From the NCBI RefSeq assembly GCF_004362745.1, contig NZ_SNXY01000006.1, positions 62,001 to 126,000 of the forward strand: 64,000 nt of DNA. The letters are read 5' to 3'. This DNA comes from Oharaeibacter diazotrophicus. Its GTDB lineage: Bacteria > Pseudomonadota > Alphaproteobacteria > Rhizobiales > Pleomorphomonadaceae. The notes below the pieces were generated by a model. The model worked only from the letters and a program-made list of their open reading frames with translations, did not search any database and was not told the origin of the DNA. Positions 4,673 to 52,243 of the stretch are shown in pieces. How positions within the stretch are numbered: position 1 is the first letter of the stretch; the number at the start of each line of letters is the position of its first letter. The translations under genes were made by a program, and so were the position numbers.

Positions 4673-4692
4673 GGGCGGCCTCGGTCAGGGCG

Positions 4693-5685: not shown

Positions 5686-5887
5686 GCCGTCTCCTCCCGG
5701 TGCCCGCGTTCGGCGCGCGCTGTCCGGTCCCGCCTCCACCCGGGAAGAAGTCTATGCCGGAGCACGCGACGGGCTCAACCGGCCACCGCGGTCGGCCGTC
5801 GTGACATCTCGCCCCGGGGGGGATCGCCCGGAACCATGCCGGTGCGGATCCGTTGACCCACTGGCAACGAAATCAAGGAGAAGCGCG

Positions 5888-6064
5888 ATGCCGACCGAAC
5901 TACCGACGCCGAAGCCTATCAATCCGGGCACCGAGAAGGAGCCCGAGAACCCCGGCGACGCCGCCATCGAGGAGCACCTGAAGGGCGAGCCGCAGAGCGA
6001 CATTCCGAGCCCGCTGCCCGACCTCGTTCCCGAGCTGATTCCCGGCGTGCCAACCGTGCGCTGA
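5888..6064 (+). CDS. Small Pro/Glu-rich protein of unknown function
   Basis: A 58-codon gene starting at ATG 5888 behind an excellent AAGGAG site (7 bases away). The product is acidic and Pro-rich (MPTELPTPKPINPGTEKEPE at the start; DIPSPLPDLVPELIPGVP near the end), with no signal peptide, membrane span or cysteine. It looks intrinsically disordered with one possible amphipathic turn (AAIEEHLKG). It stands alone, convergent with the DeoR gene (3-bp gap) and divergent from moxR. I do not recognise a family. The strong ribosome binding site and biased composition argue that it is real. Confidence 0.6.
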   Translation: MPTELPTPKPINPGTEKEPENPGDAAIEEHLKGEPQSDIPSPLPDLVPELIPGVPTVR

Positions 6065-27532: not shown

Positions 27533-28048
27533 TTGAAATCCTTCGCCCGTGCCGCCGTCACCGCCTTCGCCCTCGCGCTCGGGGCCGCGAGCGCGGCCGC
27601 CGCCGAGGATCCGGACCTGATCTTCAAGCGCTCCACCGTGTGGAAGCTGCTGACGCCGGACCACAAGCTCGCCGTCTACGCGATCGACGATCCCGTGGTC
27701 GACGGCGTTGCCTGCCATTTCACCGTGCCTGAGAAGGGCGGCGTCGAGGGCATGCTCGGGCTCGCCGAGGAGACCTCCGACATCTCGCTCGCCTGCCGCC
27801 AGATCGGCCCGATCGCCTTCAAGGACAAGTTCGAGCAGGGATCGGACATGTACCGCGAGCGCCGTTCGCTGTTCTTCAAGAAGATGCAGATCGTCCGTGG
27901 CTGCGACGTCAAGCGCAACGTGCTGGTCTATCTGGTCTATTCCGACAAGCTGATCGAGGGCAGCCCGAAGAATTCCACCTCCACCGTGCCGATCATGCCC
28001 TGGGGCGACGCCCCCGCCCCGAAGTGCGCCGACTATCTCGACGACTGA
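27533..28048 (+). CDS. creA: CreA family periplasmic protein
   Basis: A 171-residue CreA-like protein. TTG 27533 behind GAGAGG gives a proper signal peptide (MKSFARAAVTAFALALGAAS then AAAAEDP); longer frames lack one. The CreA domain shows DPLVDGVACH-like spacing (DPVVDGVACHFTVPEKGG), SDISLACRQIGPI, and RSLFFKKMQIVRGCD. The function of CreA is unknown. The gene has a long upstream region containing a dyad and a strong hairpin downstream. Confidence 0.9.
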   Translation: MKSFARAAVTAFALALGAASAAAAEDPDLIFKRSTVWKLLTPDHKLAVYAIDDPVVDGVACHFTVPEKGGVEGMLGLAEETSDISLACRQIGPIAFKDKFEQGSDMYRERRSLFFKKMQIVRGCDVKRNVLVYLVYSDKLIEGSPKNSTSTVPIMPWGDAPAPKCADYLDD

Positions 28049-28211: not shown

Positions 28212-29090
28212 TCAGGGCCGCGGCTTCGCGGCGTCGATCTCCGCCAGCAGCCGGTCGAGCCCGCCGGCAAGCCACGCGGGATCGACCTCGTGGCCGCGGT
28301 CGTGGATGCAGACGGCGATCGGACCGCGGGCGCAGCCCGGCGTTTCGTCGCAGACGACGCCGGCGATGGTGACCCGCCGCGGCGGCTCGGCGGCGCAGCC
28401 GGCCTTCTCGCGCGCGATCGCGAGGCTGGCGAAGGCGTCGCCCTGATGCCAGCGGTTGCCGATCGCCCGTCCCGCCAGCGGAAAGGTGCGGTCGGCCGTG
28501 CCGTGGAAGTGGACGATCGGCGGTGGCGTCGCGGCACAGTCGGCCGGCGTCGGCAGCGGGTTCCAGAACACGCCGGAGAAGGTGACGGCGCCGGCGACCC
28601 GGTCGCCGGAATGGCAGACCGTGTACCATGCCATCGAGGCGCCCTGGGAGAAGCCGCCGACGATGGTGCGGTCCGGGCCGATGCCGAAGCGTTCGTCGAG
28701 GTCGGCCAGGATCTGGCGCACGTAGGCGGTCTCGTCGCGGTAGCGGCCGGGGGCGTTCTCGTGGCTCCACGTGCCGTAGAGTCCGTCGGGCGCGACGAAG
28801 GCGAGGCCGCGGTCGAGCGCGACCCTGACCAGCGCCGTCTTGCGCATCTCCTCCCGCGCCGACGCCATGTAGCCGTGGAAGAACACCAGAGCCCCGCGCG
28901 GCGCGGCGCCCTCCGGCAGGGCGATCCGGTAGTCGCCGAGCGGCAGCCGGCAGGGCACGTCGCCGCCGCAGGCGAGGTCCGCCGCGGCGACGCTCGGCGC
29001 GAGCAGCGCCATCGATGCCGCGAACGCCGCGCCGGCGACGCGGAGAGCAATCGTCGAACGGATCCGGTCCGGACGGGTCGTCTGCGGCAT
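28212..29090 (-). CDS. Secreted alpha/beta hydrolase, PHB depolymerase/feruloyl-esterase-like
   Basis: A 292-residue exported alpha/beta hydrolase of the LpqC/poly(3-hydroxybutyrate) depolymerase type. The signal peptide ends near residue 36. Oxyanion strand VFFHGYMASAREEM, nucleophile S148 in GGFSQGAS, acid D200 in HGTADRTFP and H267 in HDRGHEVDP form the triad. Several cysteines (41, 47, 159, 185, 232, 247, 253, 261) suggest disulfides. It is the last gene of the sigma-factor operon, starting 3 bp after the opgC stop. The substrate, polyester or ester-linked carbohydrate, is not determined. Confidence 0.85.
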   Translation of the reverse strand: MPQTTRPDRIRSTIALRVAGAAFAASMALLAPSVAAADLACGGDVPCRLPLGDYRIALPEGAAPRGALVFFHGYMASAREEMRKTALVRVALDRGLAFVAPDGLYGTWSHENAPGRYRDETAYVRQILADLDERFGIGPDRTIVGGFSQGASMAWYTVCHSGDRVAGAVTFSGVFWNPLPTPADCAATPPPIVHFHGTADRTFPLAGRAIGNRWHQGDAFASLAIAREKAGCAAEPPRRVTIAGVVCDETPGCARGPIAVCIHDRGHEVDPAWLAGGLDRLLAEIDAAKPRP

Positions 29091-29093
29091 CGG

Positions 29094-30248
29094 TCAACCT
29101 TTCCAGGGTGCGGACTTGAACCAGCCGGCCACGTGGGCGACGGCGGTGAGCACGGCGAAGCCGAGGAGATTGGCCGCGGCGGTGGCGATCGGCCCGCGGC
29201 CGAGGTGGTCGAGCAGGATGCCGAGCGCCTGTGCCACCACCATGCCGGCGACGAACACGGCGAGCGACTGCTGCCCCACCCGCCGCACCACGCCGGCGCC
29301 CCGGCCGGCGAGCAGCCGGCTCGTCGGCGGCACCAGCGCCCAGGCGAGCCAGGCGACGGCGAGGAAGTGCACGAGCCGCAGCGCGCCGAAGTCGGTCTTG
29401 CGGGTCAGCGGTTCGATCGCGGCGGCGGCGGCGGCGAAGGTCGGCGACGCCTGGAGCACGGCGTACCACGCGAACGGCACCGACAGCACCACCACCGCCA
29501 CCGCCGCCGCCACCAGGGCCGGCCGCGGCGCCGGCGGCCGCAACAGGCCGCGGCGAATCGAGAAGCCGAGGAAGAACAGCAACTGCCAGCCGAACGGATC
29601 GAAGAACCAGGGCCGGTCCGACCACGGCTCGGCCGGCAGGTCGAGCAGCCCGAACTGGGCGAGCAGCCAGAGCTGGAACGACACCGCCAGCGGCACGTGC
29701 GGATCGATCCGCTCCAGCGCCAGCATCGCCGGCATCATCGCCAGCATGACGAGGTACATCGGCAGGATGTCGAAGTAGTTCGGCACGTAGGTCAGCGTCA
29801 GGAACCGCGCCGCGAGCCCGGCCGGGTCGGCCGCGAAGCGCTGCAGGTTCAGCGTCGCCACGTAGCTCTGGCCGCTCGGCGTCGTGCCGGCGGCACCTAG
29901 AAGGGCGAGCACGGCGACGAAGACGCAGACGTGCGCCCAGTAGACCTGCCAGATCCGCTGCGCCACCCGGGCGACGCCGAGGCGGAAGCCGGCGCGGTCG
30001 AAGGTCGAGCCGAAGGCGATCGCCGAGGCGATGCCGGACAGGAACACGAAGATCTCGGTGGCGTCGGAGAAGCCGAAGCGCGCCGGGATCCACAGCGTCC
30101 ACTGGTTCTCCGGGATGTGGGCGACCAGGATGATGTACATCCCGACGCCGCGGAAGAAGTCGAGCCGCGGGTCGCGCACGCGGCCCGCCCGAACGGGCGG
30201 CAGCGGGACGGCGCCCGCGGCGAGATCAGAACGCACCGTCGTATTCAT
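29094..30248 (-). CDS. opgC: OpgC-type membrane acyltransferase
   Basis: A 384-residue polytopic protein of the OpgC family, which adds succinyl groups to periplasmic glucans. The N-terminal signature RDPRLDFFRGVGMYIILVAH and FSDATEIFVFLSGIASAIAF is diagnostic, as are YVPNYFDILPMYLVML and RPWFFDPFGWQLLFFLGF. About ten membrane spans. ATG 30248 lies 23 bp inside the end of the TPP-enzyme gene. No glucan synthase (ndvB or opgH) is in the window. Its place in an ECF-sigma operon suggests envelope-stress control of glucan modification. Confidence 0.9.
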   Translation of the reverse strand: MNTTVRSDLAAGAVPLPPVRAGRVRDPRLDFFRGVGMYIILVAHIPENQWTLWIPARFGFSDATEIFVFLSGIASAIAFGSTFDRAGFRLGVARVAQRIWQVYWAHVCVFVAVLALLGAAGTTPSGQSYVATLNLQRFAADPAGLAARFLTLTYVPNYFDILPMYLVMLAMMPAMLALERIDPHVPLAVSFQLWLLAQFGLLDLPAEPWSDRPWFFDPFGWQLLFFLGFSIRRGLLRPPAPRPALVAAAVAVVVLSVPFAWYAVLQASPTFAAAAAAIEPLTRKTDFGALRLVHFLAVAWLAWALVPPTSRLLAGRGAGVVRRVGQQSLAVFVAGMVVAQALGILLDHLGRGPIATAAANLLGFAVLTAVAHVAGWFKSAPWKG

Positions 30249-31863
30249 CGGCGTCGAACCGGCAGGCGAGGAGGGAGAAGCGGTCGCGGACCCTGGCGTC
30301 GTCGAGTTCGCGGGCGAGCGCCGCGGCGTCGGTGACGGTGGCGCCGTGGCCGCCGAAGGCGCGGGCGAGCGCGGCGAAGTCGGTCGGGCCGATGTCGACG
30401 CCGGCACGGGCGAGGCCGGCGGCCTTCTGCTTCAGAGCGATCAGGGCGAGGGATTCGTCCTGGAACACCACCACGGTCAGCGGCAGGCCGCAGTCGCGCA
30501 GGGTGGCGAGTTCGCCGAGGCCCATTTCGAGCCCACCGTCGCCCATCACCGCCACGACCCGACGCTCGGGCGCGGCGATCTTGGCGCCGATGGCGGTCGG
30601 CAGCGCCGTCGCCATGGTGCAGAAGCCGGCCGACTGCAGCAGCGTCACGGGTCTCCGTGCCGTCCAGAGCTGCGACAGCAGGATGCGGTGCGCGCCGCTG
30701 TCGACGGTGACGACGTCGCCGTCGCCGACGTGGGCGCGCAGCGTCGCGACGATGGCGTGCGGCCCGAACCGGTCGGGGCCTGCGAAGCGGGCCGCGAGAC
30801 GGGCGCGGAGCGCCTCGACCTCGCCGCGCGGCCAACCCTGATGGCCCCCGATCGTCGCGACCAGCGCGGCGGCGGTCGCGGCCACCGGCGCCTCGAGGCG
30901 CAGCGCGGCGCGGTGCATGCCGTGGTCGAAGCGGTGCGGCGCGATTTCGACGGTGCGGGCGGGGTCAAAGGCGTCGAGCCAGCCGACCCGCATCTCGATC
31001 GGGTCGTAGCCGATGAGGATGACGAGGTCGGCGGCGCGGACCGCCTCCATCAGGATCGCGTCGGCGGCCGGCGACAGGCCGGCGGCGCCGAGCGCCAGCG
31101 GGTGGTCCTCCGGAATCGCGCCCTTGGCCTTGTAGGTGGTGACCACCGCCGCCCCGATCGCCTCGGCGAGGGTGGCGACGGCGCCGCCGCCGTGGTCGAG
31201 CGCGGCGGCGAAGCCGGCGACGATCAGCGGCCGGCGCGCGGTCGCAATCCGGTCGGCGATCCGGCCGACGGCGGGGTCGCCCGCCCGCGGCGAGAGGTGG
31301 AGTACCGCGGTCGGGCCGGGCGCGGCGGTATCGGCGGGGCGGTCGACCACGGTCGCGGCGACGCCCGGCGAGAGGTCGAGGTGGACGGGACCGGCCGGTC
31401 CGTCGAGCGCGGCGGCGAGGGCGCGCGCCACGGTGGCGCCGGCACCCTCGGCCTCGATCTCGACGCTCGTCTTGACGAGCGGGGCCAACAGTGCGCGATG
31501 GTCGATCACCTGATGGGTGAAGCGGCCGCGGATGGTGCGGTCGACGACGCCCGACAGCACCACCAGCGGTACGCGCTCCTGCGCGGCGTCGGCGATGCCG
31601 TCGACGGCGTTGGCGAGGCCCGGGCCGATCGTGGTGACGAGGAGGGCGGGCCGCCCGGTTGCAGCCCAGGCGCCCGCCGCCATCGCGGCGGCGGCGGTCT
31701 CGTGGCGGGCGAGCGTGAAGTCGATCCCGGCGCGCCCGAGCGCGTCGACGATTTCGACCACCTCGCCGCCGGGCATGCCGAAGACGTGGCGGACGCCGTG
31801 CGCCGCCAGCGTACGGGCGACGACGTCCGCCACCCGCGTCCGCGCCGGATCGGCCGCGGTCAT
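30226..31863 (-). CDS. Thiamine-pyrophosphate-dependent enzyme, acetolactate-synthase-like
   Basis: A 545-residue enzyme with the three-domain POX/AHAS layout. The Pyr domain carries the catalytic Glu E55 in the RHETAAAAMA stretch. A central domain with an FAD/NAD-like fold follows, then the PP domain with GDGGLEMGLGELATL (441–455). The cofactor-binding GDG motif normally ends about 27 residues later in Asn-Asn; here it reads FQDESLALI, so the second Mg2+ ligand is replaced. No small regulatory subunit is adjacent, so valine biosynthesis is unlikely. Candidates are a decarboxylase or oxo-acid lyase. Coupled to the upstream membrane protein by ATGA at 31860–31863. Confidence 0.82.
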   Translation of the reverse strand: MTAADPARTRVADVVARTLAAHGVRHVFGMPGGEVVEIVDALGRAGIDFTLARHETAAAAMAAGAWAATGRPALLVTTIGPGLANAVDGIADAAQERVPLVVLSGVVDRTIRGRFTHQVIDHRALLAPLVKTSVEIEAEGAGATVARALAAALDGPAGPVHLDLSPGVAATVVDRPADTAAPGPTAVLHLSPRAGDPAVGRIADRIATARRPLIVAGFAAALDHGGGAVATLAEAIGAAVVTTYKAKGAIPEDHPLALGAAGLSPAADAILMEAVRAADLVILIGYDPIEMRVGWLDAFDPARTVEIAPHRFDHGMHRAALRLEAPVAATAAALVATIGGHQGWPRGEVEALRARLAARFAGPDRFGPHAIVATLRAHVGDGDVVTVDSGAHRILLSQLWTARRPVTLLQSAGFCTMATALPTAIGAKIAAPERRVVAVMGDGGLEMGLGELATLRDCGLPLTVVVFQDESLALIALKQKAAGLARAGVDIGPTDFAALARAFGGHGATVTDAAALARELDDARVRDRFSLLACRFDADEYDGAF

Positions 31864-32351
31864 CGGCCGGCCTCGCGCCATGCGACGACCAGCGCGACGG
31901 TGACGCCGAAGATCAGGTGTCCGGCGAGCGAGGCCCACGCGAGCGGTACGAAGCCGAGGAAGGGCGGCAGCCCGGCGATCAGGTGGGCCATCACGTAGAG
32001 CGCGAAGACCCAGAGGCCGATGCCGAAGCCGAGGCCGGTCGGCAGCAACGGCAGCGTCGGGAGCAGCAGCCGCTGCAGCGGCCGGGCGACAAAGAGATAG
32101 CCGATCGGATAGGCGACCACGCCGACCAGGGCGTGGACGACCTCGGCCGCGAAGCGGCTCTGCCAGCCGAACACCGACTGCACCAACGCGGCCGGCTCCA
32201 GCGGCCCGCCGACCAGCATCGGGGTGATCAGGCGCGCCCACCCCTCCCAGAGCAGGTCGGCGGCGAGGCCGGCGAGGAGGATGGTGCGCCAGAGGCGGCC
32301 GTCGAGGGCGGGGAAGAGCGGCACGTGGCGGGGCATGTCCATGGACGACAT
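31860..32351 (-). CDS. Small four-span membrane protein of unknown function
   Basis: A 163-residue inner-membrane protein with four predicted spans (about 22–38, 73–92, 107–130, 137–157) and few charges. The segments DLLWEGWARLITPML and AAEVVHALVGVVAYPIGYLF look conserved, and overall layout recalls DUF2938-like proteins, but I cannot assign it. ATG 32351 has AGGAGATC upstream, and its stop overlaps the TPP-enzyme start. Coupling suggests a membrane partner for that enzyme or a transporter for its product. Confidence 0.7.
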   Translation of the reverse strand: MSSMDMPRHVPLFPALDGRLWRTILLAGLAADLLWEGWARLITPMLVGGPLEPAALVQSVFGWQSRFAAEVVHALVGVVAYPIGYLFVARPLQRLLLPTLPLLPTGLGFGIGLWVFALYVMAHLIAGLPPFLGFVPLAWASLAGHLIFGVTVALVVAWREAGR

Positions 32352-32403
32352 GGATCGGATCTCCTGGCGAGGAACGGGCGATGAGAAGACGAGGACCGGC
32401 CGC

Positions 32404-33747
32404 TCAGGCGAGCGGGCGGTGCGGACGGTCGGCGCGGGCGCGGCGGTCGACCGCCGCGATCAGGTGATCCTCCGCCTTGAGGCGGTGGCGGGTGCGGTGG
32501 ATCGCGGTCCGCGCGCTCTCGTCGCCGCGCCGGCCGGCGATCTCGGCGAGATGGAGCACGAAGAGGTCGCGCTGGGCGTTGCTGCCGCCGATGCGCGGCA
32601 GGTCGACCGCGAGGCGATCGAGCGCGCCGGTGCCGCGGCCGTCGGCGAGGCCGGCGATCACGCGGGCGACCGGCAGGCCGACGTCGCGGGCGACCCGGGC
32701 CTGATCGCCGGTGCCGGCGGCGCGAGCCTCCATGGCCGCGACGAGATCGGCGACGCCGACGGAGTCGCCGAGCGCGGCGAGCGCCACCAGCGTGTGCAGC
32801 ATCGCGAACACCAGCGTCGAGTCGGTACGGCGACGGCGGGCGATCTCGGCGAGGTCGGCCCAGCGCTCGCCGACGTCGACGCCGGAGCGGTCGAGCCGCC
32901 ACAACAGCGAGACGGCGTTGGCCATGTCGCGGAAGTCGTCGGTCGGCTGCGGCCGGACCTCGTCGTCGTAGAGCGCCAGCACGGCGTCGTGCTCGCCGCG
33001 TTCGAGCCGCAACAGGGCGACGTGCCAGGCCATGTGGAACGAGAAATTGTTGCAGCGCGACCAGTGCGGCCGGCCGGCTTCGAGCCAGTCGATGCCCTTC
33101 TGCGTCTCGCCGCGCATCTCGAACACGTGGCCGACGGCGTGCAGGCCCCAGGCGTCCTCGGGCTGCAGCGCTACGGCGCGGCGGCCGTAGTGCTCTGCGG
33201 CCTCGTAGGCGCCGTGCTCCTCGAGCGCGAAGGCGTGGCAGCCGAGCAGGAAGCCGGCGGCCGGGTTGGCGGCGTCCCAGGCCGGCAGCATCCGCTCGGA
33301 GGCGGCGAGCATGCCGGCGGCGTCGCCCGCCATGAAGCGGAGCGCGTGCCCGATCTTGAACGGCAGGAACACCGCCGGACGGTCGGCGAAGCCGCGGTCG
33401 AGCACGTCGATGGCGGCGCGGAAGCTGCCGCCGACGGCGGCGCGGAGGGCCGCGACCAGGACACGCTCGTCGGCGGTGCCGCCGTCGCGCGCCCCGAGCG
33501 CCCGCTCGGCTTCGGCGGCGGCCGCGGCGGCGGGGAACTCGAGCTCCTCGCGGGCGAGGATCAGGTTGGCGAAGCCCTTGAGGACGTGGGCGGCGACGTC
33601 GTCGGGATCGGCCGACAGCGTACGGGCCAGCGCGGCGCCGACACTGGGGCGGTGGGCGCCGAGGCCGTGCACGGCCTCGGCGAAGGCCGAGCGCGCCGCG
33701 GCGTCGGTGGTGGAGGTGTCGAGGCCGTAGTGGTCGGTCGTCATCAC
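32404..33747 (-). CDS. TTC38-like tetratricopeptide protein
   Basis: A 447-residue soluble helical-repeat protein. The order of segments (AAHVLKGFANLILA, VFLPFKIGHALRFMAGD, GFLLGCHAFALEEHG, AWGLHAVGHVFEMRG, HMAWHVALLRLERG) is that of the TTC38 family, conserved from bacteria to humans and of unknown biochemical role. GTG 33747 overlaps the anti-sigma stop as GTGA, with ATG 33744 one codon later. Position directly after the anti-sigma gene makes it part of the stress operon. Confidence 0.88.
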   Translation of the reverse strand: MMTTDHYGLDTSTTDAAARSAFAEAVHGLGAHRPSVGAALARTLSADPDDVAAHVLKGFANLILAREELEFPAAAAAAEAERALGARDGGTADERVLVAALRAAVGGSFRAAIDVLDRGFADRPAVFLPFKIGHALRFMAGDAAGMLAASERMLPAWDAANPAAGFLLGCHAFALEEHGAYEAAEHYGRRAVALQPEDAWGLHAVGHVFEMRGETQKGIDWLEAGRPHWSRCNNFSFHMAWHVALLRLERGEHDAVLALYDDEVRPQPTDDFRDMANAVSLLWRLDRSGVDVGERWADLAEIARRRRTDSTLVFAMLHTLVALAALGDSVGVADLVAAMEARAAGTGDQARVARDVGLPVARVIAGLADGRGTGALDRLAVDLPRIGGSNAQRDLFVLHLAEIAGRRGDESARTAIHRTRHRLKAEDHLIAAVDRRARADRPHRPLA

Positions 33748-33995
33748 GGGGCGCCCTTGCCGGTGTCGGTGGAGGGACCGTCACCGAGACCGAGCCGCGT
33801 CACCACGGCGTCGGGCGCTTCCGTGCGGAAGCTCGCGGCGGCGATGCGTCGGGTGAGACGCAGGCCGCGCACGTATGTCCGGCAGTTCGAGCACATGGCG
33901 ATGTGCAGCGCCACGCCGAGACGGTCGCCCACGGGACCGTCGCGGTCCACGTAGTCGTTCGCCTTCTCGGGAATGTCGCGGCACTTGATCGTCAC
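33744..33995 (-). CDS. Small zinc-finger anti-sigma factor
   Basis: An 83-residue protein with the zinc anti-sigma pattern H31-x3-C35-x2-C38 (LHIAMCSNCRTYVRGL) and no membrane span, so a soluble anti-sigma factor. Redox or metal state at the HCC site could control release of the sigma factor, as in the ChrR/RsrA class, though the C-terminal part is short and disordered and has no separate sensor domain. It lies 82 bp downstream of the ECF sigma gene. Confidence 0.85.
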   Translation of the reverse strand: MTIKCRDIPEKANDYVDRDGPVGDRLGVALHIAMCSNCRTYVRGLRLTRRIAAASFRTEAPDAVVTRLGLGDGPSTDTGKGAP

Positions 33996-34077
33996 GTCGC
34001 GTCCTCGGCTCTGTCGGACCGGTGCGGTTCCGCCGATGGGACGCCGCAGGGACCGCGGACGTTACTATGCCTGGACT

Positions 34078-34764
34078 TCACGCTTTCGCGAGCGCGGAAT
34101 TCCTTTCCGTCGCGGCGAGATCCTCGAGAAAGCCGCGCAGCTTGGCGCGGGCGCGGTGGAGCAGCACGCGCTGGTTCTCGGGCGTGATCTCGAGCAGGCT
34201 GCAGGTCTCGTCGGCGTCGCGGCCCTCGACGTCGCGCATGATCAGGACGGCGCGCTGGTTCGGCGGCAGCGTCTCGATGCGCGCGCGCACGCTCCGCCAC
34301 AGCTCGCGGCCCATCACGATTCGTTCCGGGCTGAGACCGTCGAGCGGTATCGGCGGGTCGGCCCAGTGCCCGTCGGGCGCGAAGCGAGCGGGATCGACCA
34401 ACGCGCCGTCGTCGCCGCCGCTCTCCCTGTCCTCGTCGAGCTGGACGAAGTGGCGCTGCTTGCGCAGGTGCGAGCGCGCCTTGTTCATCAGGATGGCGAT
34501 GATCCAGGTCGACAGCGCGGCGCGGCCGTCGAAGCCGTCGATTCCGGCCATCACGGCGATCCAGGTGTCCTGCGCCACGTCCTCGGCGACGCCGGCGTCC
34601 TTCACGACGGTCCGCGCCAGCGAGACCAGCGCGGCGTGGTGCCGCCGGACGAGGTCCGTCACGGCCGCCGGGTCCTTGGCCTTGAGCCGGCCGAGGAAGA
34701 TCCGGTCCGCCGCGATGCGGATGCCGAAGCCGGCCGCGGCGATCCAGAACGAGATCGAAGCCAT
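34078..34764 (-). CDS. ECF-type RNA polymerase sigma factor
   Basis: A 228-residue ECF sigma factor. Region 2 covers about 28–95 (DPAAVTDLVRRHHAALVSLA, then GVAEDVAQDTWIAVMAGIDG and LSTWIIAILMNKARSHLRKQ). A 45-residue linker follows, then region 4 at about 150–215 (ETLPPNQRAVLIMRDVEGRD). ATG 34764 adds a hydrophobic 20-residue N-terminus (ASISFWIAAAGFGIRIA) ahead of the usual start; no later start codon exists in that stretch. It heads the operon with its anti-sigma factor. I could not pick out a convincing autoregulated promoter by eye. Confidence 0.92.
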   Translation of the reverse strand: MASISFWIAAAGFGIRIAADRIFLGRLKAKDPAAVTDLVRRHHAALVSLARTVVKDAGVAEDVAQDTWIAVMAGIDGFDGRAALSTWIIAILMNKARSHLRKQRHFVQLDEDRESGGDDGALVDPARFAPDGHWADPPIPLDGLSPERIVMGRELWRSVRARIETLPPNQRAVLIMRDVEGRDADETCSLLEITPENQRVLLHRARAKLRGFLEDLAATERNSALAKA

Positions 34765-34962: not shown

Positions 34963-36288
34963 TCACGCGGGCAGCTTCACCTCCGCGGCGAAACCGTCGG
35001 GGCGGCCGGGGGCGGGCGAGCGGAGGGCGAGGGTGGTGCCGGCGCCGCGGGCGACGGCGTCGACGATGGCGAGGCCGAGGCCGGTGCCGTCGGCGCCGGT
35101 GGCGCCACGCTCGAACGGGCGCGACAGCCGGGCGAGCACGTCGGCGGGCACGACCGCGCCGCCGTTGACCACCGCGAGCCGGCCGTCCGGATCGAGCCGA
35201 ACCGAGACGGTCTCGCGCGCGTCGCCGTGCTTCAGCGCGTTCTCGACGAGGTTGCGGACGAGGATCGACAGGGCGTCGGGATCCATGCGCGTCGACACCG
35301 CCCCGTCCGGCAGGGCGAGCGCCAGCCGCCCGGCGGCGTCCGGTGCGCGGGCGACGTCGGCGCAGACGAGGCGGACGATCGGGCCGGCGTCGTAGGGCGC
35401 CTCGGCGAGCAGGCGGCCGCCCTCGGCGCGGGCGAGCTGCATCAGCTTCTCGGCGAGCCGCGCCAGCGTCTTCAGCGTCGCCTCGATGGTGCGTGCGCGT
35501 TCGGCCGTGCGTGAATCGCGCGTCTCGGCGAGGAGGCGCTGGGTCTGGGCGAGGGCGGAGGCGATCGGGGTCCGGAGCTCGTGGGCGCTGTTGGCGGTGA
35601 AGCTGCGCTCGGCCTCGAGGGTGCGGCGGAGCCGGTCGAGCAGATGATTCACCGCCGCGGCGATCGGCTCGATCTCGGACGGCATCGGTCCGGCGGCGAG
35701 CGGGGTCATGTCGCCGGCACCACGGGTCTCGATGGCGGCGCAGAGCCGGCGGATCGGCCGCATCCCGGCCCGCACCGCCAGCCAGACGCCGGCGAAGGAC
35801 AGCGGCACCAGGAGCGCGATCGGCAGCGCCAGCGCCTCGGCGGCGTGGTTCACCGCGGCGCGGCGGACGGCGATCGGTTCGGCGAGCAGGATGGTCAGCG
35901 AGCCCTTCAGCGCCGCCTCGGCGTAGATTCGGTGCGTCGCGGTGGTGGAGAAGCCCGCGGGCACGGAGGCCGGAAAGATCGCGGGATCGGCGTCGTGCGA
36001 GGCGAGCACGATCGTGCCGGCCTCGTCGCGCACCACGTAGGTCAGCAGCTCGTGGTGCGGCCGGACCGGGGCGACGCGTTGCAGGTCGGTCGGCTCGCGG
36101 TCGATGATCTCCATCACCGCCAGCGGCAGGATGCGCTGGGCGGTCTCCTGGATCGCGCTGTCGAACACCTCGCCCATCTCGTGGCGCATCACCGCGTAGG
36201 CAGCGGCCGACGCCGCCAGCCAGACCAGCGCGAGCCCGATCGAGAGCGCCGCGGCCAGCCGCGCCTGCAGGCTCCGCGGCGCCGTCAC
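34963..36288 (-). CDS. Membrane sensor histidine kinase, QseC/TctE-like
   Basis: A 441-residue kinase: membrane span 13–33, periplasmic sensor about 34–150, second span about 153–172, HAMP, dimerisation helix with phospho-acceptor H236 in SFTANSAHELRTPIASA, and an ATPase domain with VRNLVENALKHGD and GADGTGLGLAIVDAV. Layout and sensor size fit the QseC/TctE group. GTG 36288 overlaps the regulator's stop (GTGA). With its regulator it diverges from the PepSY/DUF2271/ApbE cluster, the likely target. Confidence 0.92.
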   Translation of the reverse strand: MTAPRSLQARLAAALSIGLALVWLAASAAAYAVMRHEMGEVFDSAIQETAQRILPLAVMEIIDREPTDLQRVAPVRPHHELLTYVVRDEAGTIVLASHDADPAIFPASVPAGFSTTATHRIYAEAALKGSLTILLAEPIAVRRAAVNHAAEALALPIALLVPLSFAGVWLAVRAGMRPIRRLCAAIETRGAGDMTPLAAGPMPSEIEPIAAAVNHLLDRLRRTLEAERSFTANSAHELRTPIASALAQTQRLLAETRDSRTAERARTIEATLKTLARLAEKLMQLARAEGGRLLAEAPYDAGPIVRLVCADVARAPDAAGRLALALPDGAVSTRMDPDALSILVRNLVENALKHGDARETVSVRLDPDGRLAVVNGGAVVPADVLARLSRPFERGATGADGTGLGLAIVDAVARGAGTTLALRSPAPGRPDGFAAEVKLPA

Positions 36289-36944
36289 GGTACCCCCAGC
36301 CGGTAGCCGAGGCCGCGCACGGTCTCGATCGCCGTCGGCCCGAGCTTCTTGCGCAGGCGGCTGACGTGGACCTCGATCGTGTTGCTGTCGACCTCGCGGT
36401 CGAAGGCGTAGAGCCGTTCCTCGAGCTGACCCTTGGAGAGGATCGTGCCCGGCCTCTGCACGAGGCCCTCGAACAGCGCCCATTCGCGCGCCGTCAGCGC
36501 CACCGGCCGGCCGGCGCGGCGGACCGCCTTGGCGGCAAGGTCGACCTGGAGGTCGCCGACGGAGACCAGCGGGTTCGGGTTGCCGTGGTAGCGCCGCGAC
36601 ACCGCCGAGAGCCGCGCGCCGAGTTCGTGCAGGTCGAAGGGCTTGACGAGATAGTCGTCGGCGCCGGCGTTGAGCCCGGCGATGCGGTCGGAGATCTGGT
36701 CCATGGCGGTGAGCACGATCACCGGCGTGACGTCGCCGGCCGCCCGGAGCGCCTTCAGGAAGTCGAGGCCGCGGCCGTCGGGCAGCATCAGGTCGAGCAG
36801 CACGAGCTCGTAGGGCGCGGCGGCCATGTGGTCGCGGGCGTCGGCGAGCCGCGTCACCCAGTCGACCGAATGGCCGTCGTCGGCGATCTGGTCGCGCACC
36901 GCCGAGCCGAGCCCGCGGTCGTCCTCGATCAACAGCACCCGCAC
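36285..36944 (-). CDS. OmpR-family response regulator, QseB/TctD-like
   Basis: A 219-residue regulator with receiver domain (D8/D9, phospho-acceptor D51 in LLDLMLPDGRG, K101 in YLVKPFDL) and a winged-helix domain ending IETVRGLGYRLG. GTG 36944 has AAGGGGG upstream. It is encoded first in the pair and shares a 139-bp divergent promoter region with the PepSY gene. That region holds inverted repeats such as GAAGCTGA with TCAGCTTC (near 36990–37040) that may be binding sites. Confidence 0.93.
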   Translation of the reverse strand: MRVLLIEDDRGLGSAVRDQIADDGHSVDWVTRLADARDHMAAAPYELVLLDLMLPDGRGLDFLKALRAAGDVTPVIVLTAMDQISDRIAGLNAGADDYLVKPFDLHELGARLSAVSRRYHGNPNPLVSVGDLQVDLAAKAVRRAGRPVALTAREWALFEGLVQRPGTILSKGQLEERLYAFDREVDSNTIEVHVSRLRKKLGPTAIETVRGLGYRLGVP

Positions 36945-37083
36945 GCCGAGCCCCCTTGTCCCTCGACTTCTTCTGCCCGTCGGACCTGACGGGAAGCTGA
37001 AGCCGATCCTGCACCGTCTTCAGGCCGCCGTCAGCTTCGGGGCCGAGCGTATGCGGCGTGGAACGAGCCGGGGAGTGCCCGAG

Positions 37084-37584
37084 ATGAAGACGAGAACCTG
37101 GATCGCGGCGATGGCCGTGGTCGTGTCCGGCGCCGGCGCGGCGCTCGCCGACGACGACGGCTGCGAGGCCCGCGTCGGCGACTGGCAGCCGCGCAGCGCC
37201 GTGGTGAAGATGGCCGAACAGCGCGGCTGGACCGTCCAGCGCATCAAGACCGACGACGGCTGCTACGAGATCGTCTGCACCGATCGCGAAGGCCGCAGCT
37301 TCGAGGCCATCGTCGATCCGGCGACGCTCGAGGTGATCGCGACCGAGAGCCGCCGCGGCGGCCACGACCGCCACGGCGACGGCCGGGACGCCCGCGGCCA
37401 CGGCGACGACGACCACCGCCGGAGCGCCGAATCCGGCCGCCGCGGTCACGACGACGAGGACGACGAGGACGACGACGAGGGCGGCCGCCGCACCCCGCCG
37501 GCCGGTCCGAGCGACCCGAACGCGCCCGTGCCGGACAACGGCCTCTTCAACGGCAAGCTCCGCCCCAAGGTCCAGGTGCAGTGA
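37084..37584 (+). CDS. Periplasmic PepSY-domain protein with His/Asp-rich tail
   Basis: A 166-residue exported protein: signal peptide MKTRTWIAAMAVVVSGAGAA ending at about 22, one PepSY-type domain (about 35–90; VVKMAEQRGWTVQRIKTDDG, FEAIVDPATLEVI) with cysteines at 27, 60 and 65, then a strongly charged tail of His, Asp, Arg and Gly (about 92–145) that could bind divalent metal, and a short Pro-rich end. First gene of the flavin cluster and divergent from the two-component pair. Small PepSY proteins accompany PepSY_TM reductases and are often under QseBC-like control. Confidence 0.82.
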   Translation: MKTRTWIAAMAVVVSGAGAALADDDGCEARVGDWQPRSAVVKMAEQRGWTVQRIKTDDGCYEIVCTDREGRSFEAIVDPATLEVIATESRRGGHDRHGDGRDARGHGDDDHRRSAESGRRGHDDEDDEDDDEGGRRTPPAGPSDPNAPVPDNGLFNGKLRPKVQVQ

Positions 37585-37619
37585 GCACCGGCCGCAACGA
37601 AGATCCGAGGACGACCTTG

Positions 37620-38090
37620 ATGAAGATCACCACCACCGCCCTCGCGGCCGCGACGGCGCTCGCCGTTCCCGGCCTCGCCGAGGCCCGCGAGATCACCTTC
37701 GAGACCACGCTGAAGAACTACGGCGGCGACGGCGCCTACGTGGTGATCTACGTCGTCGACGCTTCGGGCGCCTACAAGGGCACGCTGTGGATGGCCGGCG
37801 GCAAGGCCAAGTACTACCGCCACCTCTCCGACTGGGAGGCCGCCTCCGGCGGGGCCCGCGCCGAGATCGACGGCATCACCGGCGCCAGCGTCGGCGCCGG
37901 CCGCACCCTGAAGATCACCGCCGACCTCGCCGACGCGCTGATCGACGGCGGCTTCGAGATCCGCGTCGACACCGCCGTCGAGGACATGCGCGACAACCCT
38001 TCCGACGTCGTCGCGCCGCTGACCTCCGCCGGCAACGGCAAGCCGGTGGCCGGCCGCGGCTACGTCGAGAGCTTCACCTACAGCTTCTGA
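37620..38090 (+). CDS. DUF2271 periplasmic protein, probable covalent-FMN carrier
   Basis: A 156-residue exported protein; the signal peptide MKITTTALAAATALAVPGLA ends near residue 22. The DUF2271 core includes NYGGDGAYVVIYVVDASGAY, TLWMAGGKAKYYRHLSDW and RVDTAVEDMR. Residues 84–90 read DGITGAS, resembling the D-x-x-(S/T)-G-A-(T/S) target on which ApbE enzymes attach FMN by phosphoester to the last Thr or Ser; here that would be S90. ATG 37620 follows CGAGG. It sits 35 bp after the PepSY gene and 9 bp before the reductase gene, with apbE also in the unit, so it is the natural substrate. Confidence 0.8.
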   Translation: MKITTTALAAATALAVPGLAEAREITFETTLKNYGGDGAYVVIYVVDASGAYKGTLWMAGGKAKYYRHLSDWEAASGGARAEIDGITGASVGAGRTLKITADLADALIDGGFEIRVDTAVEDMRDNPSDVVAPLTSAGNGKPVAGRGYVESFTYSF

Positions 38091-38099
38091 ACCGGACGC

Positions 38100-40316
38100 A
38101 TGCCCATGTTCCGCAAGATCCACTCGATCCCCGGCCTCGCCGCCGCGCTGCTCGTCGCCGTCACGGCGGCGACGGGGGCGGTGCTGTCGGTCCAGCCGGC
38201 GCTGCAGCGCCTCGAGGCCACCGTGCCCGCCCGTGGCGAGGTCACCGTGGCGGCGCTGGCCGAACGGGTGCAGGCCGCGCTGCCGGGCGTCGAGTCGATC
38301 GAGCGCAAGCCCTCGGGCCTGATCGTCGCCACCTGGTTCGACCCGGACAGGCCGGGCATGGCGACGATCGATCCGCGGACCGGTGCGGTCACCGGCGCCT
38401 ACGAGCCGTCGGGCACCGTGCGCTGGATCACCAACCTGCATCGCAAGCTGCTCGCCGACGACACCGGCCGCGCCGTGGTCGGCTTCGGTGCCGCGGCCAT
38501 GCTGCTGCTGACGCTGTCCGGCACCGCGATGCTGGCCCAGCGCCTCGGCGGCTGGCGCCGGCTGTTCGGTCCGATTCGCGGCTCGGCGAGTGGCCGCCTC
38601 CACGCCGAACTCGGCCGTGCCGCGGTCGCCGGGCTGGTGCTGTCGGCGGCCACCGGTCTCCTCCTGTCGGCGACCACCTTCGAGTTCCTGCCCGACGGCG
38701 CCCCCGCCGAGGCGGCGCCCGCCGAGGCCTCCGGCGGTCCGGCCCTGCCGGTCGGCGAACTCGGCGCCCTGAAGGCGGTCGACCTCGCGGATCTGCGCAA
38801 GCTCGCCTTCCCCGATCCGGGCGATCCCACCGACGTCGTCACCCTGACCACCGCCTCGGGCGAGGCCACTGTCGACCCGGCCACCGGCGCCGTCCTGACC
38901 GCGGCCGAGAACGACGCCTGGCAGACCGCGTCGCAATGGATCTACGCCCTGCACACCGGCGAGGGCCTGTGGTGGCTGGCGCTGGTGCTCGGTGCGAGTT
39001 CGGCCGTCGTCCCGGTCCTCACCGGCACCGGCCTCGTGATCTGGGTCGCCCGTCGCCGCGCCCGGCCGCGGATCGCCCACGACGCCGGCGCCCAGTCTGC
39101 CGACACCGTGATCCTGGTCGGCAGCGAGGGCAATTCGACCTGGGGATTCGCCGCCACGCTGCACGCCGCGCTGACCGCCGCCGGCCATCGCGTCCACACG
39201 AGGGCGATGAACGACGTCGCCGTCTTCCGCCACGCCCGTCGCGTCGTCGTGCTGACGGCCACCTACGGCGACGGCGAGGCGCCCGCGTCGGCGCGGCGCT
39301 TCGCGGAGCGCTTGGCGCGGCTGCCGGCCGCCCCGGCGCCCGCCTTCGCGGTGCTCGGCTTCGGCGACCGCGGCTTCGCGCACTACTGCGGCTTCGCCGA
39401 GACCGTCGACGCGGCGCTCGCCGCGACCGGCATGGCACGCCTGCTCGACCTCGGCCGGATCGACCGCCAGTCGGCCCAGGCCTTCTCCCAATGGGGCGCC
39501 GACCTCGGCGCCGCGCTCGGGATCGAGCTTGCGCTCGCCCACGTCCCGTCGCGGCCCCGGACGTCGCGGCTGCGTCTCGTCGCGCGCGAGGACTACGGCC
39601 TCGCCGTCGACGCGCCGACCGCGGTGCTGCGCTTCGCGCCGGCCGAGCCGGGTCCGTCGCTGCACGCCCGCCTGTTCGGGGCGCGCCTGCCGAGCTTCGA
39701 GGCCGGTGACCTCGTCGGCGTGCTGGCGCCGGGCAGCGACGTCGCGCGCTTCTATTCGCTCGCCTCGGCGACGCGGGACGGCGTGCTCGAGATCTGCGTC
39801 CGCCGCCACCCCGGCGGGCTCTGCTCGGGCTTCCTGAACGATCTTCCCGTCGGCGGCGAGATCGACGCCTTCGTGCGCGCCAACCCCGGCTTCCGCCCGG
39901 CGCCCGGCTCCGCGCCGGTGATCCTGGTCGGCGCCGGCACCGGCATCGGCCCGCTCGCGGGCTTCATCCGCCACAACGACCACCGCCGGCCGATGCACCT
40001 CTGGTTCGGCGCCCGCAACCCGGCCTCCGACTTCCTCTACCGCCAGGACCTCGACCGCTGGCTGGCCGAGCGCCGCCTCACCGGGCTCCACACCGCCTTC
40101 TCCCGTGTCGCCACGCGCACCCACGTCCAGGACCGCCTCGAGGCCGACGCCGAGACCGTGCGGACGCTGGTGGCGAAGGGCGCGCAGGTCATGGTCTGCG
40201 GCGGTCGCGACATGGCGGCGGGTGTCGCCGAGGTGATCGGTGCGGCGCTGCGCCCGCTCGGGCTCACCGTCGAGGCGCTGAAACGGGAGGGACGCTATGT
40301 CGAGGACGTCTACTGA
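38100..40316 (+). CDS. PepSY_TM–flavodoxin–ferredoxin-reductase fusion (membrane NADPH oxidoreductase)
   Basis: A 738-residue fusion. Residues 1–320 form a PepSY_TM unit with four spans (12–32, 122–146, 172–192, 292–317) and histidines H114, H168 and H285 near membrane faces that could ligate heme. Residues 336–480 form a flavodoxin domain (VGSEGNSTWGFA as FMN loop; TATYGDGEAP; GFGDRGFAHYC). Residues 490–738 form a sulfite-reductase/P450-reductase-like module: RFYSLAS for FAD (550–556), GAGTGIGPLAGF (611–622) and CGGRDM for NADPH. Electrons would pass NADPH to FAD to FMN to the membrane part. It precedes apbE with a 20-bp overlap. Confidence 0.9.
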   Translation: MPMFRKIHSIPGLAAALLVAVTAATGAVLSVQPALQRLEATVPARGEVTVAALAERVQAALPGVESIERKPSGLIVATWFDPDRPGMATIDPRTGAVTGAYEPSGTVRWITNLHRKLLADDTGRAVVGFGAAAMLLLTLSGTAMLAQRLGGWRRLFGPIRGSASGRLHAELGRAAVAGLVLSAATGLLLSATTFEFLPDGAPAEAAPAEASGGPALPVGELGALKAVDLADLRKLAFPDPGDPTDVVTLTTASGEATVDPATGAVLTAAENDAWQTASQWIYALHTGEGLWWLALVLGASSAVVPVLTGTGLVIWVARRRARPRIAHDAGAQSADTVILVGSEGNSTWGFAATLHAALTAAGHRVHTRAMNDVAVFRHARRVVVLTATYGDGEAPASARRFAERLARLPAAPAPAFAVLGFGDRGFAHYCGFAETVDAALAATGMARLLDLGRIDRQSAQAFSQWGADLGAALGIELALAHVPSRPRTSRLRLVAREDYGLAVDAPTAVLRFAPAEPGPSLHARLFGARLPSFEAGDLVGVLAPGSDVARFYSLASATRDGVLEICVRRHPGGLCSGFLNDLPVGGEIDAFVRANPGFRPAPGSAPVILVGAGTGIGPLAGFIRHNDHRRPMHLWFGARNPASDFLYRQDLDRWLAERRLTGLHTAFSRVATRTHVQDRLEADAETVRTLVAKGAQVMVCGGRDMAAGVAEVIGAALRPLGLTVEALKREGRYVEDVY

Positions 40317-49366: not shown

Positions 49367-51721
49367 TCACGCCTCGCCGCGCCAGCCGAGCAGGCGCATG
49401 GCGTTGGCGGTCACGATCACCGTGGCGCCGGTGTCGGCGAGGATCGCCGGCCAGAGGCCGGTGACGCCGGCGACGGTCGTGACCAGGAACACCGCCTTCA
49501 GGCCGAGGGCGATCGTGATGTTCTGTCGGATGTTGGCCATGGTCGCCCGCGACAGCCGGATCATCGCGGCGACGTCGCCGACCCGGCCGTGAAGAACCGC
49601 GGCGTCGGCGGTCTCGAGCGCGACGTCGGTGCCACCGCCCATGGCGATGCCGACGTCGGCGGCGGCGAGCGCCGGCGCGTCGTTGATGCCGTCGCCGACC
49701 TTGCCGACCCGCCTCCCGCCGGCCTGGAGTTCGCGGACGATGCGCTGCTTGTCGGCGGGCAGCAGTTCGGCGCGGTGGTCGATCCCGAGCGTCGCCGCCA
49801 CCGCCGCGGCGGTGCGGGCGTTGTCGCCGGTCAGCATCACCGGCGCGACGCCGGCCGCCTTCAGCGCGTCGAGCCCGCGGCGGGCGTCGGCGCGCGGCTC
49901 GTCGCGCATGGCGATCCAGCCGGCGACCCGGCCGTCGCGGACCACTACCGCGACCGACTTGCCCTCGCCGCCGCGGGCCGCGAAGGCGTCGCGCTCGGCC
50001 GCGCCGACGACGCCGATGGCTTCCGCCGCGGCCGGCGAGATCAACTGGACCTCGACGCCGTCCACCGTCCCGCGGACGCCCTTGCCGGGCAGGGCGGCGA
50101 CCGCGCCGGCGGCGGGGACGGCGATGCCGTCGGCGGCGGCACGGGCGAGGATCGCGACCGCGAGCGGGTGGCTCGACCCGGCCTCGAGTGCGGCGGCGAG
50201 CGCGAGCACGTCCGGCACCCTGGCGTCGCCGACCGCCGCGACGTCGGTCACCACCGGCCGGCCCTCGGTCAGAGTGCCGGTCTTGTCGAGCGCGACCGTG
50301 GTCAGGCGCCCGACCTGTTCCAGCACCGCACCGCCCTTCATCAAGAGGCCGCGGCGGGCGCCGGCGGCGAGTCCGGCCGCGATCGCGGCCGGCGTCGAGA
50401 TCACAAGCGCGCAGGGGCAGCCGATCAGCAGGATGGCCAAGCCCTTGTAGACCCAGGCGTTCCAGTCGCCGCCAGCGACCAGCGGCGGCAGCACCGCCAC
50501 CGCCGTCGCCACCGCGACGACACCCGGCGTGTACCAACGCGCGAACCGGTCGATGAAGCGCTCGGTCGGCGCCTTGGCCTCCTGCGCCTCCTCGACCAGA
50601 CGGACCACGCGGGCGATGGTGTTGTCCGCGGCGGCCGCGGTGACGCGGACGCGCAGGAGGCCCTCGCCGTTGATCGTGCCGGCGAAGACGGGATCGCCGA
50701 CGGTCTTGGCCTTCGGCACGCTCTCGCCGGTCACCGGGGCCTCGTCGACCGCGCTCGCCCCCTCGACGATCGCGCCGTCGGCGGCGATCCGGTCGCCGGG
50801 CCGGACCGCGATCACCGCGCCGACGGCGAGATCGGCCGCCGGCACCTCGACGAGTGCGCCGTCGCGCTCGAGCCGTGCCGTCGCCGGCACCAGGGCCGCG
50901 AGGCCGCGGATCGACGCCCGCGCCCGTGCCGCCGCGACGCCCTCCAGCACCTCGCCGACCAGGAACAGGAACACCACCGCCGCCGCCTCCTCGGCGGCGC
51001 CGATGACGACGGCACCGACCGCGGCGATCGTCATCAGCATCTCGATCGAGAAGGGTGAGCCGTAGCGGGCGGCGACGACCGCCCGCCGCGCGATCGGCAC
51101 CAGTCCGACCGCAAGCGCCGCCAGGAACGCCCACGGTCCGACCGCCGGGGCGAGGTGGCCGAGGGCGTAGGCGAGCGCGAGGGCGGCACCGCAGGCGATC
51201 GCCAGCCGCGCCTTGGCCGACGCCCACCACGGGCCGTCCGAGGGGCCGTGGTCGTGGCCGTGGAGGCCGGCGGCGACAGTGGGCGAGGGGGGGGACGGGG
51301 TGTGATGGGTGTGGCTATGGGCTTGGCGTGGCGCGTGATTTTCGTGTCGGCCACCATGGTCATGGTCATGGTCATGGTCATGGGCGTGGCGGTGCCCGTG
51401 ATCGTTTCCGGCACCGTGGTGGTGATCGTGCCCGTGGTCGTGCCCGGCGCAGCAGCCTTCGGCCGCCGGCGCCGCCGGCCGGGTCGCGGCGGGGCGCGCG
51501 GCCACCGGCATCACCGGATAGCCGAGGCGGGTGATCGTGGCGGCGAGGCCGTCGAGGTCGGCATCGCCGGCGTGGGTCACGGTCATCGACGCGGCCGTGA
51601 CCGAGACGGTGACATCCTCGACGCCGCCGAAGCGGCGGGCGGCGGTCTCCACCTTCAGGGCGCAGCCGGCGCAGTCCATGCCCTCGACTCGGAAGCGCGT
51701 CTTCGTGGTCGGTGCGGTCAT
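49367..51721 (-). CDS. P1B-type Zn/Cd/Pb-exporting ATPase
   Basis: A 784-residue heavy-metal ATPase of the ZntA/CadA type. One N-terminal HMA domain has GMDCAGC (14–20), then CC (90–91). A long His/Asp/Gly-rich linker (about 94–158) follows, unusually large and probably metal-buffering. Core motifs: TGES (331–334), CPC (435–437) in the membrane metal site, DKTGT (479–483, phosphorylated Asp), HP in SSHPLAVAI and [13 protein letters not shown] 51721 is preceded by AAGGA. It diverges from a ZntR-like MerR regulator whose promoter has the long spacer typical of that control. Confidence 0.94.
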
Positions 51722-51751
51722 GTCCGGGGTCCTTGCGGTTCGCATGGAGCG

Positions 51752-51782
51752 ACCCTAGATCCTCCAGCGACTAGAGGAGCAA
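51752..51782 (-). promoter_or_regulatory. MerR-type promoter of the P1B ATPase gene
   Basis: On the minus strand TTGCTC (51782–51777) and TAGGGT (51757–51752) are separated by 19 bp that hold the near-perfect dyad CCTCTAG-TCG-CTGGAGG. An over-long spacer with a central dyad is the hallmark of promoters activated by MerR-family metal sensors. The ATPase start is 30 bp downstream. Confidence 0.75.
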
Positions 51783-51790
51783 GACCGAAA

Positions 51791-52243
51791 ATGACAGGCC
51801 CGGTTCCGATCGGCGAGGCCGCACGCGTGAGCGGGGTGAAGGTGCCGACCATCCGCTACTACGAGGAGGTCGGGCTCCTGCCCGAGCCCCCGCGCACGGA
51901 GGGCAATCGCCGGCTCTACGGCGACAAGCATTTGAAAAGGCTGGCGTTCATCCGCCACGCCCGCGAGCTCGGCTTCGAGGTCGACGCGATCCGCACGCTG
52001 CTCGACCTCCAGGACGATCCCGGCCAGTCCTGTTCGCCGGCCGATTCGATCGCGAGGGTCCGGCTCCGCGACGTCGAGGCCAGGATCGCGCGGCTGACCG
52101 CGCTGAAGGCCGAACTCGAACGGATGATCGCCGGTTGCTGTGCCGGCACGGTGGCGGATTGCCGGGTGATCGAGGCGCTCGCCGGCGACCACCCGCATCC
52201 CGCAGGTCCGGGTCAGGCCTCGTCGGCGCTGTCCTTCAAATAG
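51791..52243 (+). CDS. MerR-family metal sensor, ZntR/CadR/PbrR-like
   Basis: A 150-residue MerR regulator. The winged helix begins PIGEAARVSGVKVPTIRYYE (about 6–25) and the dimerisation helix spans about 84–114. Metal ligands C81, C116/C117 and C124 (the GCCAGTVADCRVIEAL loop) match the ZntR/PbrR arrangement, indicating Zn, Cd or Pb sensing. It diverges from the ATPase gene and overlaps the convergent DUF3297 gene by 31 bp. ATG 51791 has GGAG about 11 bases ahead. Confidence 0.92.
   Translation: MTGPVPIGEAARVSGVKVPTIRYYEEVGLLPEPPRTEGNRRLYGDKHLKRLAFIRHARELGFEVDAIRTLLDLQDDPGQSCSPADSIARVRLRDVEARIARLTALKAELERMIAGCCAGTVADCRVIEALAGDHPHPAGPGQASSALSFK

Follow-up and report, generated by a model that had tools for sequence, protein, structure and literature searches.

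What unites an extracytoplasmic function (ECF) sigma factor with a tetratricopeptide repeat (TPR) protein, a thiamine diphosphate (ThDP)-dependent enzyme, an OpgC-family acyltransferase and a secreted hydrolase? The question is raised by a locus of Oharaeibacter diazotrophicus at positions 28212-34764, minus strand, of a 64,000-nt stretch of contig NZ_SNXY01000006.1, which we call the window; G000 denotes the window's own genome (~5 Mb), and the other G and L numbers denote related genomes and loci. Its seven genes are referred to as SIG (sigma factor), ZF (anti-sigma factor), TPR, MEM (membrane protein), TPP (ThDP enzyme), OpgC and HYD (hydrolase). On balance we lean towards reading them as a conserved alphaproteobacterial module for envelope acylation under an ECF sigma switch. 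A first-pass annotation had described seven genes here joined by overlaps or short gaps, and gene calls, domains and gap lengths confirm it: the distances along SIG to HYD are 82, -1, 52, -4, -29 and 3 bp, and all seven genes were recovered by a codon-usage gene caller written for this analysis.

To ask how widely the gene set is kept, 80 loci were taken from a scan of named genomes, with presence judged by our own gene calls and clustering. Near the TPR gene, OpgC is found in 60 loci, TPP in 52, MEM in 40, HYD in 36, a family III coenzyme A (CoA)-transferase in 29, OpgG in 15 and OpgH in 14. Part of the partner absences is owing to short contigs; of the 50 loci with 6 kb or more to either side, 43 have OpgC and 39 have TPP, and 33 carry three or four of OpgC, TPP, MEM and HYD. 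The TPR proteins at conserved loci are 38-70% identical to that of the window. Gene order in related genomes had been proposed as a check by the first-pass annotation, and conserved synteny is what was found over the 80 loci, which come mostly from Rhizobiales, Rhodobacterales and Rhodospirillales-type genomes (record titles include Rhizobium, Sinorhizobium, Hyphomicrobium, Alsobacter, Paracoccus, Amaricoccus, Roseovarius, Kiloniella and Inquilinus). A TPR homologue occurs in 20 of 60 related genomes. In each of the eight with the best TPR matches (G000, G002, G001, G020, G059, G047, G036 and G035), an OpgC_C gene lies no more than 3 kb away, whereas match positions put none within 10 kb in the remaining 12, and 13 more distant TPR loci (L041-L053) gave no OpgC match.

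Three of the loci carry peculiarities of their own. The module is present, with a TPR protein 70% identical to the window's, in a record named Mycobacterium sp. KBS0706 (L068), and a TPR protein at 45% identity occurs in an Anaerolineae metagenome-assembled genome (L111); both taxon labels look wrong or mis-binned. On an Aliirhizobium plasmid (L078), TPR, HYD and OpgC are each called twice, side by side, within one module, as duplicated or broken genes.

The regulatory genes at the head of the string are of recognizable kinds. SIG (34078..34764, 228 aa) is an ECF-type sigma factor: the domain search found only Sigma70_r2 (61.4 bits), Sigma70_r4_2 (48.3 bits; both above cut-off) and Sigma70_r4, with no region 1 or 3, and SIG is 43-57% identical to 14 SIG genes clustered from related loci. 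ZF (33744..33995, 83 aa) is a short zinc-binding anti-sigma factor by its match to NF052368 (53.7 bits, cut-off 50), although it scores below cut-off against Pfam zf-HC2 (18.8 versus 22.2 bits). Its sequence contains HIAMCSNC, which fits HxxxCxxC, a pattern that we take to be the zinc anti-sigma motif. By tblastn, a ZF homologue was found in 14 of the 16 loci searched that lack the ECF16-type sigma factor discussed below.

The 82-bp gap between SIG and ZF holds an ECF-type promoter, GTAACGT-N16-GTC (34040..34065, minus strand; -35 at ~34065-34059, -10 at ~34042-34040), which precedes ZF-TPR-MEM-TPP-OpgC-HYD; hence, transcription of these six genes need not include SIG. The motif is unique in the window (34065-34040). 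It forms the downstream part of a composite element that begins inside the last SIG codons, in which the dyad TCGCGAAAGCGTGA (34078..34091, minus strand, overlapping the last codons and stop of SIG) is followed by 12 bp and then by the promoter. In locus L034 of the related genome G002 the SIG gene points the opposite way, and the dyad 14-mer stands there, again 12 bp from the -35 element, with no SIG coding sequence overlapping it; the same 14-mer and spacing recur in locus L149 (L149:6106). Since the dyad is present in both of these loci, where SIG is not upstream, it is, as a prediction, a cis element in its own right. The dyad was not seen at the promoter sites of the rhizobial Rieske operons described below.

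A simple seven-gene operon as the only unit, which the first-pass annotation had proposed, is ruled out by the promoter in the SIG-ZF gap together with the divergent SIG in L034: the gene string is real, but its last six members have a promoter of their own and SIG is separable. The same annotation had named separate promoters and independent expression of the five downstream genes as the finding that would speak against it, and the six-gene ECF promoter comes close to this but leaves co-regulation intact.

Genome-wide, G000 has four matches to the ECF motif, against none for the reversed control. One of them lies ~45 bp upstream of a CoA-transferase gene at C6:1216201 (locus L149), 1.1 Mb away, and the two promoters share the dyad TCGCGAAAGCGTGA, the 12-bp spacer, GTAACGTCCGC and GGCGTCCCA. 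Within G000, this gene also matches best (63%) the CoA-transferase found after OpgC in rhizobia. Its best solved matches are an unnamed CaiB/BaiF protein, a formyl-CoA transferase and then succinate-hydroxymethylglutarate CoA-transferases, and we class it as a putative family III CoA-transferase and a predicted member of the regulon. The other two matches (L150, L151) are beside unrelated genes, without the dyad, and look like chance. It should also be noted that in L149, at 4251-5893 and divergent from the CoA-transferase, there are genes for a SCO1/SenC protein and two small proteins without Pfam matches (signal peptides read by eye); relatives of the two small proteins flank the module in the Hyphomicrobium loci L036 and L082-L084.

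Across the loci, the motif GTAACGT-N15/16-GTC occurs at the TPR-unit position in 10 of 15 SIG/ZF loci, in none of 11 ECF16 loci and in none of 55 others. A wider form, GTAACG[TC], has 18 sites in the 205 kb of ten SIG-type loci, compared with a mean of 1.9 and a maximum of 11 for 298 permuted motifs. Ten of these sites precede the ZF/TPR unit, six a short-chain dehydrogenase/reductase (SDR)/Rieske-ferric-reductase operon, one a YHS gene and one a thioredoxin-like gene, with none elsewhere in those loci. The SDR operon, which includes small proteins, has its own ECF motif near 17-20 kb in L056, L059, L060, L064, L065 and L067, and in L057 it is divergent from TPR; neither G000 nor G002 gave a good match to this second target of rhizobia. 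Two variants of the motif proved unhelpful: a first guess, TAACGTC-N15-CGTC, had the wrong spacing and matched only one unrelated site, and the GTAACGC variant gave no more matches than the reversed control in G000 and G002. An autoregulatory ECF-type promoter at the locus is well supported as a prediction from these patterns, and shared regulation of the gene set appears very likely.

The same evidence bears on whether the string is a chance local operon without functional unity. The gene classes do look unrelated, and several partners are absent in some loci, yet the arrangement is conserved over loci whose TPR proteins share 38-70% identity with the window's, and its composite promoter is shared with a distant CoA-transferase gene. 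Synteny and promoter data thus already contradict a chance operon, which we consider highly improbable.

Is this particular sigma factor part of the module's core? The first-pass annotation had counted the sigma factor and its HCC anti-sigma factor as members. They are present here, but the window-type sigma family is found in only 13 of the 80 loci, and loci without it often carry an ECF16-type sigma factor with NrsF (PF06532, 184.7 bits). Where BLAST aligns them, SIG and the ECF16 proteins have a median identity of 26.5%. Seven of 8 SIG-type genomes lack NrsF, PF06532 not being found in G000, and all 10 of the other genomes chosen for comparison have it. The TPR and sigma genes of loci without the window-type SIG are often preceded by TGTAAC-type sites resembling Sinorhizobium meliloti RpoE7 sites: TGTAAC-N15/17-CG[TA]A lies upstream of TPR in 6 of 11 ECF16 loci and in 9 of the 55 others, but in none of the 15 SIG/ZF loci. 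With a background of 34/973 upstream of other genes, this motif alone is weaker evidence than GTAACGT.

The available part of one report describes SigF/NrsF as governing the copper-stress regulon of Caulobacter, and the SigF targets given there include no OpgC or TPP gene (PMC8224329). The ECF16 loci put the same module beside SigF-NrsF-like genes and TGTAAC-type promoters, and the GTAAC core of the -35 element is common to the SigF-NrsF promoter and that of the window, whereas the window has a different sigma factor and a small zinc-finger anti-sigma factor instead of NrsF. The parallel suggests copper or an oxidant as the input at this locus, which we rate as an even chance.

What, then, might such a switch control? 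OpgC (29094 to 30254 or 30179, minus strand) is an OpgC-family membrane acyltransferase in which OpgC_C (PF10129; 334.7 bits, cut-off 21.4) spans residues 1-357 of 358, full length. Its earlier label, glucan succinyltransferase, holds for the family but is a family label only. OpgC proteins are described as succinylating the periplasmic glucans of several bacteria, and the anionic character of osmoregulated periplasmic glucans is ascribed to succinyl and methylmalonyl groups (PMC9558356). Marine, Rhodobacterales-type loci have OpgG and OpgH after an OpgC of the same subfamily; 10 loci place OpgC immediately before OpgG, and 13 place OpgG before OpgH. The order TPP-(CoA-transferase)-TPR-OpgC-OpgG-OpgH, with Pfam MdoG and glycosyltransferase matches, is found among others in L113, L118 and L131, and ties this OpgC subfamily to glucan synthesis. 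G000 itself has opgG elsewhere in the genome (MdoG/OpgG 642.8 bits), with an opgH-like gene adjacent and no opgC beside it. The locus resembles the opgGIH-opgC operon of Rhodobacter sphaeroides in having an OpgC_C membrane protein, in the OpgC-OpgG-OpgH order of its Rhodobacterales-type relatives and in a genome that also carries opgG-opgH; it differs in that the window's OpgC is under a predicted ECF switch and partnered by TPR, TPP, MEM, the hydrolase and a CoA-transferase.

The module may instead make and export some other acylated product, such as an envelope glycan, lipid or small molecule, its OpgC being a paralogue with an acceptor other than osmoregulated periplasmic glucans. Of 60 relatives, 31 have PF10129, in many cases with no TPR gene alongside; G000 has three full-length OpgC paralogues; the Rhizobiales loci listed have OpgC away from OpgG and OpgH; and HYD resembles feruloyl esterases and polyhydroxybutyrate (PHB) depolymerases. 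Weighed against the OpgG and OpgH neighbours in Rhodobacterales-type loci and the activity of known OpgC proteins on periplasmic glucans, another product seems to us possible but not probable, and action on glucans is mildly favoured.

TPP (30226..31863, minus strand) has all three ThDP domains (TPP_enzyme N, M and C above cut-off), and E55 is invariant in 27 sequences. Its profile is nearest to catabolic acetolactate synthases, and by domains and best solved-structure matches it belongs with the superfamily of catabolic acetolactate synthase, 2-hydroxyacyl-CoA lyase and oxalyl-CoA decarboxylase. It falls well below all of the NCBIfam acetolactate synthase cut-offs shown (best 318 bits versus 509); 'acetolactate synthase', the name behind its earlier description, is likewise a family label only. 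It also reads FQD after GDG, with D469 invariant, at a place where N is usual.

The TPP-CoA-transferase pair recurs among the loci, and a paralogous pair lies elsewhere in G000 (C6:860775-863699). Both favour a stress-induced catabolic or detoxification route, built on the ThDP lyase and the CoA-transferase and in some relatives an acyl-CoA dehydrogenase, with OpgC as a hitchhiker. So do the acyl-CoA dehydrogenase-like genes, identified by eye, beside distant TPR paralogues without OpgC in L052 and L043 (L052 also has a TPP enzyme), and the YeeE/YedE sulfur-transport genes near TPR in L111, L112, L120, L121, L123-L125 and L127, together with DUF302 and rhodanese genes near other TPR copies. 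OpgC is, however, the most constant partner (60/80 loci, and 43/50 of those with 6 kb on both sides), and its start overlaps the TPP stop in all 17 loci listed. The overlap is 29 bp in seven of them, as in the window if OpgC starts at 30254; the codon-usage caller prefers the later start at 30179. We regard a catabolic or detoxification role with OpgC as a hitchhiker as unlikely.

The TPR protein (32404..33744, minus strand) is identified by its predicted fold and invariant His and Glu residues; against Pfam its best score, TPR_17 at 16.8 bits, is below the cut-off of 24.4. Its AlphaFold2 model (predicted local distance difference test, pLDDT, 96.1) is a TPR superhelix, and its PDB matches are generic TPR folds, including Rap protein 4gyo (VIA-align Z 17.6, root-mean-square deviation 4.7, 319 residues aligned); thus, no function follows from the fold comparison. 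H202, H206, H237, H241, E175 and E176 are invariant in 60/60 sequences, in HxxxH and HxxWH motifs, and the same set is kept in 20/20 loci, including distant paralogues of 30% identity. A metal site is suggested by two pairs of HxxxH spacing that lie on neighbouring helices, and given these invariant motifs the protein is probably a metal-dependent enzyme. It is presumably TTC38-like or StaR-like, a label that rests on its TPR superhelix; the invariant His/Glu set, which suggests catalysis, sets the window's family apart. To our knowledge, the function of the TTC38 family is not known, and the literature offered no more on TTC38 than a link between the human protein and unnamed metabolites, and nothing of use on StaR among the papers listed.

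MEM (31860..32351, minus strand, 163 aa) has no Pfam match. Its model (pLDDT 95.2) has four long helices and no PDB match at E<=0.001, which does not show a new fold. HYD (28212..29090, minus strand) is a secreted alpha/beta hydrolase or esterase (Abhydrolase_2 53.1 bits, cut-off 23) with an N-terminal hydrophobic segment, read by eye. The Ser-Asp-His triad S148, D200 and H267 and five Cys are invariant in 21 sequences. The nearest solved structures are feruloyl esterases and a PHB depolymerase family esterase, although HYD scores below cut-off for PHB depolymerase NF050058 (58.3 versus 150 bits).

On the conserved gene set, the promoter with its second copy and the ECF16/NrsF alternative, all plain in the sequences, we infer a chemistry and an inducer as follows. 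Stress, probably thiol oxidation or copper, would free the sigma factor from its zinc-finger anti-sigma factor, and the freed sigma factor would transcribe the module, its own anti-sigma factor and the distant CoA-transferase. The ThDP enzyme and the family III CoA-transferase would supply a dicarboxylyl-CoA inside the cell, e.g. succinyl-CoA or a relative; OpgC would pass the acyl group through the inner membrane to periplasmic glucans, the products of the genome's opgG-opgH, and the acylated glucans would become more anionic. The secreted hydrolase would trim esters, and the TPR protein would probably be a metal-dependent enzyme of the same route. This particular acyl chemistry we hold to be doubtful.

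Several observations weigh against this reading. TPP, MEM, HYD and the CoA-transferase are each missing from many loci, in part through short contigs. When the motif is counted genome by genome, five rhizobial genomes have fewer matches than the reversed control, and G002 has 3 versus 2, so the promoter case there rests on conserved position and the permutation test, not on counts. The genome-wide motif matches in G000 fall elsewhere than opgG-opgH, and the glucan backbone is thus not co-regulated. With two further full-length OpgC paralogues in G000, glucan as the substrate of the window's OpgC is predicted but unproven among the three. Sulfur chemistry is another possibility, in view of the YeeE, DUF302 and rhodanese neighbours, and the copper link would come by analogy with ECF16. 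Finally, the case is one of sequence evidence throughout. Of the stress response remodelling periplasmic glucans that the first-pass annotation envisaged, conserved synteny and OpgG/OpgH partners speak for the idea, while the glucan chemistry stays conjectural.

The module is flanked in the window by a CreA gene (27533-28048, plus strand) downstream of HYD and by a histidine kinase/response regulator pair on the minus strand upstream of SIG. The adjoining region, 36285-40316, holds a two-component pair, a PepSY_2 protein, a DUF2271 protein and a PepSY_TM-flavodoxin reductase, and looks like a separate redox- or metal-linked set. A heavy-metal P-type ATPase with an HMA domain, with a divergent MerR regulator alongside, lies at 49367-52243.

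Our literature search, with most subscription journals outside it, found no description of this gene set and nothing on OpgC together with an ECF sigma factor and anti-sigma factor; the available part of the S. meliloti ECF study (PMC6180224) makes no mention of acetolactate, glucan or TPR. Taken together, a gene set of many soil and marine bacteria seems to attach acid groups to cell-envelope sugar polymers, and the presence of two unrelated stress switches on one gene set points to an undescribed pathway of envelope protection. More tentatively, a TPR metalloenzyme, a ThDP enzyme and a dicarboxylate CoA-transferase may make a special acyl-CoA that OpgC loads onto glucans, giving an inducible anionic buffer against metals or oxidants, a stress-inducible route not yet described and rewired between two unrelated ECF switches. 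As G002 and G001, both of the window's family, carry the same gene set under two unrelated sigma/anti-sigma pairs, this replacement of the regulator is directly testable. If the reading is true, a widespread TPR-fold family would gain a function, its invariant histidines suggesting catalysis, and the decoration of periplasmic glucans would gain a role that is induced by stress and fed by its own supply of acyl-CoA.

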